DNA of 64,000 nucleotides from Flavobacterium psychrophilum DSM 3660 = ATCC 49418 (GTDB lineage Bacteria > Bacteroidota > Bacteroidia > Flavobacteriales > Flavobacteriaceae): assembly GCF_002217405.1 (NCBI RefSeq), contig NZ_MUHE01000013.1, forward strand, positions 1-64,000, read 5' to 3'. Position numbers and translations under genes: made by a program. Shown here piece by piece: positions 4,382 through 5,910 of the stretch; within the stretch, counting starts at the first letter, position 1; each line of letters begins with the position of its first letter. A model generated the notes under the pieces. That model saw nothing but the letters and a program-made list of their open reading frames with translations, was not told the DNA's origin and made no database searches.

Positions 4382-4499
4382 ATGCAATTTGAAGTTGTAG
4401 TTAAATTGCGTGCAAATATAGTGTTTTAATTTTAGATTTCAGATGTTAGATTTGAGATTTATAAAATCAAGTCAGTTTTGAATTGGGTTTATTCTAAAA

Positions 4500-4577
4500 T
4501 ATAGCTAAAAAAGGCTATAAATATAGTTTATAGCTAAAAAAGGCTATAAATATAGTTTATAGCTAATAAAAGCTATA
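4500..4577. repeat. Three 29-bp direct repeats, each holding a TATAGCT/AGCTATA palindrome
   Basis: A 29-bp unit repeats at 4501, 4530 and 4559. Each carries an inverted repeat: TATAGC...GCTATA at 4500-4519, the same at 4529-4548, and TATAGCT...AGCTATA at 4558-4577. The third copy has diverged outside the arms and its right arm overlaps the TATATTTG promoter box of the next gene. The spacing, close to three helical turns, puts the palindromes on roughly one DNA face. This looks like a set of operators. The neighbouring helix-turn-helix protein is the obvious candidate ligand, which is inference. Confidence 0.75.
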
Positions 4578-4583
4578 TATTTG
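4576..4583 (+). promoter_or_regulatory. -7 box (TATATTTG) of the SatD-like gene
   Basis: TATATTTG fits the flavobacterial -7 consensus and abuts the third palindrome. No TTG is seen at the normal -33 distance; the palindromic repeats occupy that place, which suggests regulated or assisted initiation. A start site some 5-7 bases downstream leaves only the ATG at 4605 usable and excludes the in-frame TTG at 4581. Confidence 0.65.
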
Positions 4584-4604: not shown

Positions 4605-5297
4605 ATGAATGAGAAAATAGTTTTATCTGGAGATATTATTGCTTCTACTAGTTTAGCCAATGAAGCAAAATCGACTTTAGAATTGGAGTTAAAGACATTA
4701 ATTTTAATATTAGGAAATAATTTTTCTATTTATGGAAGAGTTATAAAAGGTGATTATTTAGAAATGGTAATCGAAAATCCTGAAGATGCTTTAGCTATTG
4801 CAATCATAATAAAAAGTTATATAAAATCGATTGTTTTAACTACAGATATTGATTCCTCAAGAAGTAAATACTTTAAAAATTATGGCATTCGATTGGCAAT
4901 TGGATATGGAGAACTGACTAGATATGACAAGCTAAACGGAGTTATAGATGGTGAAGCGATTTACTTTTCCGGAAGAAGAATAAGTGAAGAACGTACTACT
5001 TATGACAAAGAACGAATTGTAATAAAAAACACACTTTTTTTTAACTCTAATAACGAGAATTTAAATGAAAATATAAATTGTATTGTAGCTTTATTAGATG
5101 TTTTAATAAGTAATGCAACAGCTAAGCAATGTAAAATTTTATATCTTCGTTTATTGGGATTGAGCGAACAAGAAATTGCTACTCAAATTGGAGTGAAACA
5201 ACCAACAGTGAACAAACAACTAACGAGTATTGGCTGGAATGCAATTGAGAAATCTGTAGTTTATTTTAGTTCCCTTTTTAAAGAAATGAAATTATGA
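4605..5297 (+). CDS. SatD family protein with C-terminal helix-turn-helix
   Basis: The 230-residue protein belongs to the SatD family, whose biochemical role is unknown. The N-terminal two thirds show, in order, LSGDII near the start, a GDYLEM strand followed by a helix rich in Ala and Ile, RLAIGYGEL, then GEAIYFSGRRISEE. This succession resembles the class III nucleotide cyclase fold without a convincing catalytic set. The last 60 residues (LRLLGLSEQEIATQIG, then VKQPTVNKQL) are a sigma-70 region-4/LuxR-like HTH. It overlaps the following DUF3307 pseudogene by 4 bases, the usual family arrangement. Three palindromes lie in its promoter, so autoregulation is plausible. Confidence 0.8.
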   Translation: MNEKIVLSGDIIASTSLANEAKSTLELELKTLILILGNNFSIYGRVIKGDYLEMVIENPEDALAIAIIIKSYIKSIVLTTDIDSSRSKYFKNYGIRLAIGYGELTRYDKLNGVIDGEAIYFSGRRISEERTTYDKERIVIKNTLFFNSNNENLNENINCIVALLDVLISNATAKQCKILYLRLLGLSEQEIATQIGVKQPTVNKQLTSIGWNAIEKSVVYFSSLFKEMKL

Positions 5298-5737
5298 TGG
5301 TAAAAATGCTTATTTTACAAATAATAGCCCACATATTGAGTGATTATTTTTTTCAGACAGATGCTAGCGCAAAAGAGAAAAATGAAAATGATTTTAAAAG
5401 TCAATTTTTATTAAAAAATGCTTTTAATTACTTTTATCTGTTCGTGGTTATTTTCGTTTGATGTAAACTTAGAGAAACCTTTGTTGCGGGTAAAATTGAA
5501 AGTATTTCAGATACTATTATCGAACTTAAAAATGCTGGAAAACTAATTGGAATTTTAGAACGAATCTTAGTATTAACATTTGTAATTATTGGAAAACTGG
5601 AAATAGTAGGGTTTCTTATTGCTGCAAAATCTATTTTGAGATATAAAGATACTAATACAATTAAGACTGAATATGTGCTAATTGGAACAATGCTTAGTTT
5701 TGGGATTGCAATAATGATTGGATTGCTAATTGATTAA
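5294..5737 (+). pseudogene. Broken DUF3307 membrane protein gene
   Basis: The frame opens at 5294 overlapping the SatD-like stop and gives an N-terminal DUF3307-like segment (LILQIIAHILSDYFFQ, then TDASAKEKNE) that hits TGA at 5459-5461. The same frame then continues to 5737 and encodes the recognisable C-terminus (NAGKLIGILERIL, LIAAKSILRY, YVLIGTMLSFGIA). Intact family members have about 230-240 residues; here only about 145 codons remain, so roughly 90 central codons are deleted and a stop lies near the junction. The partner SatD-like gene is intact. Read-through or two separate peptides cannot be excluded, but a dead gene is most likely. Confidence 0.75.
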
Positions 5738-5765
5738 TTCTAGTATTTATTTATTACTGATGATT

Positions 5766-5910
5766 TAGCCCAGATTGTAGTGGAAAACATTTTGAAATAC
5801 AATTGTATTTTTTCTTGGCAAAAAACAACGACCAAAGGAAGTTCGTTTTTTGACTTAGAAAAAAATAATTGTATGAGAAATTTTGTAACGAAAAGCTGGA
5901 AATAGCTCCT
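5766..5910 (+). repeat. Dispersed hairpin element, copy A (diverged)
   Basis: Starts TAGCCCAGATTGTAGTGGAA and ends AAGCTGGAAATAGCTCCT, the two ends shared with the other copies in this window (7979, 18108, 37252, 49343 and 57914). The middle is longer than in the compact copies and holds a T/A-rich stem. It lies between convergent genes, the broken DUF3307 gene and HMG-CoA lyase. Confidence 0.65.

Follow-up and report, generated by a model that had tools for sequence, protein, structure and literature searches.

A conserved array of alternating half-sites at the promoter of satD-like genes of Bacteroidota as a probable autoregulatory operator

Three palindromes of the same type lie directly upstream of a satD-like gene in the window, i.e. 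the whole stretch of 64,000 nucleotides of Flavobacterium psychrophilum DSM 3660 (contig NZ_MUHE01000013.1) that was analysed here. This raises the question of which protein recognizes the palindromes, and what its binding would do to the adjoining promoter. An earlier note on this DNA had proposed cooperative binding by the SatD-like protein itself. With a probability of roughly 0.8, we regard the array as the autoregulatory operator of the satD-DUF3307 operon, at which SatD would bind the half-sites and repress transcription under the control of a nucleotide. The features of the locus are collected in Table 1.

Table 1. Features of the satD-like locus, in positions of the window
Feature	Position	Strand	Description
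Operator 1	4500..4519		TATAGC-N8-GCTATA, exact sequence match; half-sites 4500-4505 and 4514-4519
Operator 2	4529..4548		Same as operator 1 across the full 29-bp unit; half-sites 4529-4534 and 4543-4548
Operator 3	4558..4577		TATAGC-N8-GCTATA with diverged spacer; half-sites 4558-4563 and 4572-4577
Putative -7 promoter box	4576..4583	+	TATATTTG, flavobacterial type TAnnTTTG; 2-bp overlap with operator 3
satD-like gene	4605..5297	+	230 aa; N-domain of predicted class III nucleotidyl-cyclase fold and C-terminal HTH
DUF3307 N-terminal remnant	5294..5461	+	Overlaps the stop of satD (ATGA); open for 55 codons
DUF3307 C-terminal remnant	5462..5737	+	Other frame; identified by eye against intact relatives and their alignment

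All three palindromes were found to be exact, at the positions and in the 29-bp register that the earlier note had described, and the direction of the half-sites alternates every 14–15 bp. The description of this register as three helical turns was not borne out, because 29 bp corresponds to 2.76 turns at 10.5 bp per turn. The first two 29-bp units are identical and the third is 79% identical; units 1 and 2 are thus not independent evidence, and one has probably been copied from the other recently. Tandem Repeats Finder gave a period of 29 with 2.7 copies and a score of 142. Outside the array, the 2,638,051-base genome contained no copy of TATAGC-N8-GCTATA without mismatches, and copies with one mismatch were found at 4 places, compared with 5 for the reversed-pattern control. 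A CRISPR-like repeat was rejected by eye, as the gaps are of 9 bp and long unique spacers are lacking. A separate, perfect 7-bp inverted repeat (GCAATTT/AAATTGC, 4384-4390 and 4403-4409) was observed just before the start of guaB (minus strand), and by eye also in L006–L008; it is possibly a leader hairpin or a regulator site of guaB.

The identity of units 1 and 2 means that the copy number can change by duplication, as would be expected of a neutral tandem repeat without function. The upstream regions of satD relatives were compared. Such relatives were found in 73 of 199 genomes of the same genus (own genome included), and matches in 241 of 397 genomes at the family level and in 101 of 395 at the phylum level. 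The gene starts were located by HMM search; an earlier regular-expression start finder had lost 14 of 30 loci. The sample comprised 70 of the 76 places from the genus search (left out were G028 twice, G077, G145, G084 and the second of G003), the best 30 loci of the family search, 25 new best and 40 further places of the phylum search, and 8 named loci. From these 173 rows, L001–L004, identical proteins and two proteins shorter than 185 aa were dropped, leaving 163, and three loci with less than 120 nt of upstream sequence were dropped in turn. The resulting 160 loci represent distinct satD-like proteins from Bacteroidota with enough upstream sequence and are not a random sample. A chain was defined as alternating half-sites, taken as 7-mers with one mismatch allowed, 12–17 bp apart. 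Exact-spacing counts and this chain were used; an array statistic with a jitter of ±2 was discarded as too permissive (shuffle means of about 13–16 of 18).

Four or more half-sites in such a chain, with steps of about 14 bp, were found in 126 of the 160 loci. Dinucleotide shuffling (15 shuffles for each locus) gave an expectation of 2.8, and within the genes the count was 0 of 160. Chains of at least five were present in 104 loci, against 0.2 in shuffles and none in-gene. The unit period in the relatives was 28 in 377 of 500 cases and 29 in 101; the commonest period of 28 bp corresponds to 2.67 helical turns, and the commonest array length was six half-sites, i.e. three operators (46 loci). 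In 66 upstream regions from the same genus, 270 perfect 6+8+6 palindromes were counted; the coding region gave 4, and random pieces taken from the window gave 8.4. The distances between these palindromes lock on 14, 28, 42 and 56 bp, which implies that the half-sites flip direction every 14 bp. In a later, separate set of 40 held-out family loci, a chain of at least four was found in 27. No chain of four was detected in 34 of the 160 loci and 13 of the 40 held-out loci, among them the distant homologues L154, L155 and L157–L162 and loci such as L021 and L022. In the latter two the array is displaced upstream by about 200 nt, with an intervening stretch before satD that in L021 contains a GTCCCGA/TCGGGAC palindrome; L108, viewed over 135–160 nt, has a similar intervening sequence and no array there.

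The letters of the half-site differ by lineage, while the layout is shared by most of the 160 loci. The TATAGCT palindrome, whose presence upstream of satD orthologues the earlier note had put forward as a check, and whose absence there as a refutation, was in its literal form confined to a few relatives and absent from most of those sampled; the architecture was what had been kept. That a layout should be common to 126 of 160 sequence-diverged loci, where 2.8 are expected, leaves the neutral repeat hardly credible.

In its TATTAC version the array was also found to accompany satD closely. This commonest version, TATTAC-N8-GTAATA-N8-TATTAC, matched in 51 of the 199 genus genomes, and the reversed control in none. 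By comparison by eye with the places of satD, nearly all positions of this pattern, among the matches listed, were upstream of satD, in G004 and G175 at about 260–300 nt. There were three exceptions among the matches listed. G114 had its match at a contig end and satD at the end of another contig, G185 (contig C85) had one and a half chance-like sites, and G179 (L189) had two TATTAC operators with an adjoining DUF3307 end remnant and no satD found beside them, which looks like an operator scar where satD is gone. In G120, which was checked further, satD is present. G155 has two satD genes (L009 and L035) with two different arrays and half-sites, indicating that an array goes with its gene rather than with its genome. 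By eye, the arrays follow satD across genomic positions, whether beside guaB or beside an HMG-CoA lyase gene. The window SatD had no match in the phage and plasmid collections, and no relatives were found in viral contigs.

The letters of the half-sites were compared with the recognition helix of SatD, which in the window protein spans about residues 198-208 (KQPTVNKQLTS). For the correlations and the column ranking, four loci with half-sites not starting with TA were omitted (126 to 122), and the half-site of L052 and L113 was changed manually from TAACAT to TGTTAC to bring it into phase. The TA rule sets the phase of the half-site blind to the protein, and it leaves bases 1 and 2 nearly untestable. 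Half-sites and helices fell into corresponding groups: TATTAC occurred with NQAAVSRR in 49 of 50 cases, TATTAG with TQGN(I/V)SQG in 8 of 9, TATAGC with KQPTVNKQ in 5 of 6 and TATCTG with SQSN(I/V)SE in 5 of 5. Given the N-domain, half-site similarity correlated with helix similarity with a partial r of 0.44 (0 of 999 permutations); the correlation with the N-domain given the helix was 0.09. For the rest of the C-terminal domain (151-195) the uncorrected r was 0.65, against 0.67 for the helix, and it dropped to 0.17 given the helix.

Among 199 alignment columns, columns 199, 200, 201 and 204 had median ranks of 1, 2.5, 3 and 4 for association with the half-site (30 thinned draws of 34–38 proteins each, below 60% N-domain identity). 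The strongest pairing of column 199 was with base 3 and that of column 201 with base 5; columns 200 and 204 each paired most with bases 4 and 6. L052 and L113 combine N198K/Q199R with TGTTAC, and relatives at 87–88% N-domain identity combine NQ with TATTAC; the switch in the two loci is probably one shared event. E204 accompanied TATC.. half-sites in 15 of 17 cases, and the QSAVSQ helix occurred with TATAAG or TATTAG. K204 accompanied TATTCC in three separate lineages, and also occurred with TATAGC (5) and TAAATC (1). Three of four held-out K204 proteins had TATTCC as the best word, of which L203 is 91% identical to a training protein; L216 was the exception. When a code of the four residues was applied to the 40 held-out loci, the half-site it predicted was first of 30 in 14 and among the top three in 29. 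Permuted predictions for the same loci gave a mean of 5.7 firsts and a maximum of 13 in 2000, which argues that the residue code is real but incomplete.

The assignment of the sites to SatD comes from comparing sequences, and a different regulator might own them. This was considered very improbable: the residues that best track the half-site are four in SatD's own recognition helix, the two satD genes of G155 go with two different half-sites, and the arrays stay with satD at differing places. SatD is therefore very probably the binder of the array. The proposal of the earlier note that the protein binds at its own promoter thus gained comparative support from the layout in 126 of 160 loci and from half-sites that track the helix.

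Inspection of the protein indicated what kind of regulator SatD might be. The C-terminal HTH matched Pfam Sigma70_r4_2 with an E of 8e-5, below the cut-off, and PADLOC gave one weak match, over the HTH (E 0.008). The AlphaFold model of the window SatD had a pLDDT of 84.4 and a pTM of 0.86, and nearly all of its best structural matches were class III adenylyl and guanylyl cyclases. The modelled N-domain resembled these cyclases (Rv1625c, Rv1264, Ma1120) in fold, with a VIA Z of 10.4 and 3.3 Å over 143 residues to 7yz9; Foldseek gave a probability of 1.0, but the best E was 4e-3 and none was at or below 0.001. It differs from them in its fusion to an HTH and in sequence, with identities of 9–21% in the rows listed. 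Near-equal structural scores were obtained for Cas10-type Cmr2 (Z 9.6) and a GGDEF domain (Z 9.1), so that the wider palm superfamily is possible too. D10 was conserved in 161 of 163 proteins and D50 in 162 of 163; we take both to stand at the places of the cyclase metal ligands, and the catalytic Asn and Arg positions were assigned by motif. In this motif-level mapping, the Asn position was mostly I or V among the 163 proteins and Y in the window protein, and the Arg position was E in 109 of 163 and R in the window protein. The predicted fold together with the two aspartates suggests that the N-domain is probably nucleotide-binding, perhaps without cyclase activity.

The gene looks to be under constraint, with a dN/dS of 0.145 against L170 (NG86) at a dS of 1.04, which is near saturation. 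Within the SatD family (PF16264, from the sat operon of streptococci), 15 of 24 wider relatives matched at E≤0.1, the best at 2.5e-9. L170, which is 76% identical to the window protein, matched weakly (21.2 bits against a cut-off of 29) over residues 87-210, including the HTH. The window protein had no match to PF16264 at E≤1, and its own genome gave 0 matches, but 14 control genomes gave 0 too. As the window protein has no match above the cut-off, the name 'SatD-like' was used.

The effect of binding was judged from the position of the promoter. The flavobacterial -7 consensus TAnnTTTG spans -12 to -5 (PMC9723704, in excerpt), which would place the array upstream of the transcription start, a position deduced from the box. 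Operator 3 shares two bases with TATATTTG, in line with the contact between palindrome and box reported earlier, and by eye no TTG -33 element was seen at the usual distance upstream of the box, again as reported. A sigma-70 promoter scan stayed at shuffle level (11 found, 10.4 expected). Among the 126 array loci, a TAnnTTTG box started in the last operator or at most 3 nt after it in 46, spread over 13 half-site words with TATTAC in 20 of the 46. Random placement gave a mean of 19.6 and a maximum of 29, and the box density an expectation of 25.2. No TAnnTTTG was found within 160 nt in 35 of the 126. Some TATTAC-type loci (e.g. L034 and L041) have one TATATTTG inside the last operator and another some 11 nt ahead of the satD ATG, which suggests a second promoter, possibly leaderless.

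Since the last operator overlaps the -7 box and its occupancy would cover the core promoter, autorepression of satD is suggested as the best guess. SatD could instead act at the array like a class I/II activator. The lack of a -33 element at the promoter studied would suit a promoter in need of activation, and at eight TATTAC loci the nearest TAnnTTTG lies 25–26 nt beyond the array, where activation is also possible. The box overlapping or inside the last operator in the 46 loci occupies a position that would normally block the polymerase, and activation was accordingly judged unlikely.

The same geometry bears on whether the array works as RNA. The units are inverted repeats and might form an attenuator or processing hairpins in a transcript. 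As the array stops at the -7 box here, transcripts from this promoter should not include it. Rfam found nothing over the array, and the covariation observed is with the HTH; an RNA element is thus highly improbable.

Autorepression would extend to the gene behind satD. A DUF3307-like frame was found 3' of satD on the same strand in 158 of the 160 loci, with its first ATG within -20 to +14 nt of the satD end in 143 of the 158 and at -4 in 83. The partner is intact in 8 of 8 named relatives (230–245 aa). The window copy is broken, with a change of frame, and lacks a middle section of roughly 80 codons that is present in relatives (Pfam E of the remnant 2.6e-8); the satD gene and operators of the window look intact. 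The AlphaFold model of DUF3307 had a pLDDT of 62.2. An Rfam Flavo-1 RNA (RF01705) was matched at 5763-5906 (+), in the interval that separates the DUF3307 remnant from the HMG-CoA lyase gene; its score of 42.3 bits compares with a gathering score of 42.

In the favoured mechanism, the C-terminal sigma-region-4/LuxR-like HTH of SatD would recognize every half-site (in this locus TATAGC). As neighbouring half-sites are inverted and 14–15 bp apart, dimers of the protein could line up in a chain over the full array, for which we infer cooperative binding. With the last operator reaching into the -7 box, bound SatD should exclude RNA polymerase and thereby repress both satD and the gene that follows. 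The N-domain would probably bind a nucleotide that sets the affinity or the oligomeric state; the predicted class III cyclase fold implies that a nucleotide may be the signal. The number of operators would shift by tandem duplication, and recognition helix and half-sites would change together in evolution. A bolder proposal, which we consider doubtful, is that SatD is a cyclase-derived nucleotide sensor that forms a helical filament on the half-site lattice, silences a DUF3307 partner that would do harm once released, and is dissolved by the signal nucleotide, the switches of half-site representing a readable recognition code. Geometrically, three 14-bp steps amount to 42 bp, i.e. four helical turns.

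The arrangement was compared with known systems. The closest is that of hipBA of Escherichia coli, where HipB binds cooperatively to four spaced TATCC-N8-GGATA palindromes in its own promoter region (PMC3376134, PMC3920265, both in excerpt). In the same excerpts HipB is described as an antitoxin of the Cro type whose toxin is a kinase. HipB is the autoregulator of a two-gene operon, as SatD would be, and the TAT..N8..ATA geometry of its sites is very similar. SatD differs in combining a predicted cyclase-like domain with a sigma-region-4/LuxR-like HTH and in its partner, DUF3307. The match of HipB chains to the SatD profile was weak and over the HTH only (E 0.04). To our knowledge, hipBA is not known to have a lattice of evenly alternating half-sites whose letters vary by lineage. 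In the literature searched, which covered few subscription papers, no report of SatD DNA binding or operators was found. With several palindromic operators found at the promoter of the gene itself, sites and boxes being recognized by their sequence, the satD array appears to be a new variant of multi-operator autoregulation.

In Streptococcus pyogenes, satD was essential in the strains tested and present in 178 of 249 genomes (PMC11323703, in excerpt). Losing a repressor would do damage only as long as the target gene is present, so that such a gene could be essential where found and missing elsewhere. The essential yet patchy satD would hence suit a repressor or antidote that has no target in the other strains, a hint that is our own and lies outside that paper.

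Taken by its sequence, the SatD operator lattice appears conserved, gene-specific and rapidly re-lettered. A role as DNA-binding autoregulator would be the first testable one for the widespread SatD family, and would link the predicted nucleotide-cyclase fold and the near-obligate partner gene to it. The lineage-specific half-sites, each with its own helix, may serve as a natural test case for the joint evolution of specificity in an HTH and a multi-copy operator.
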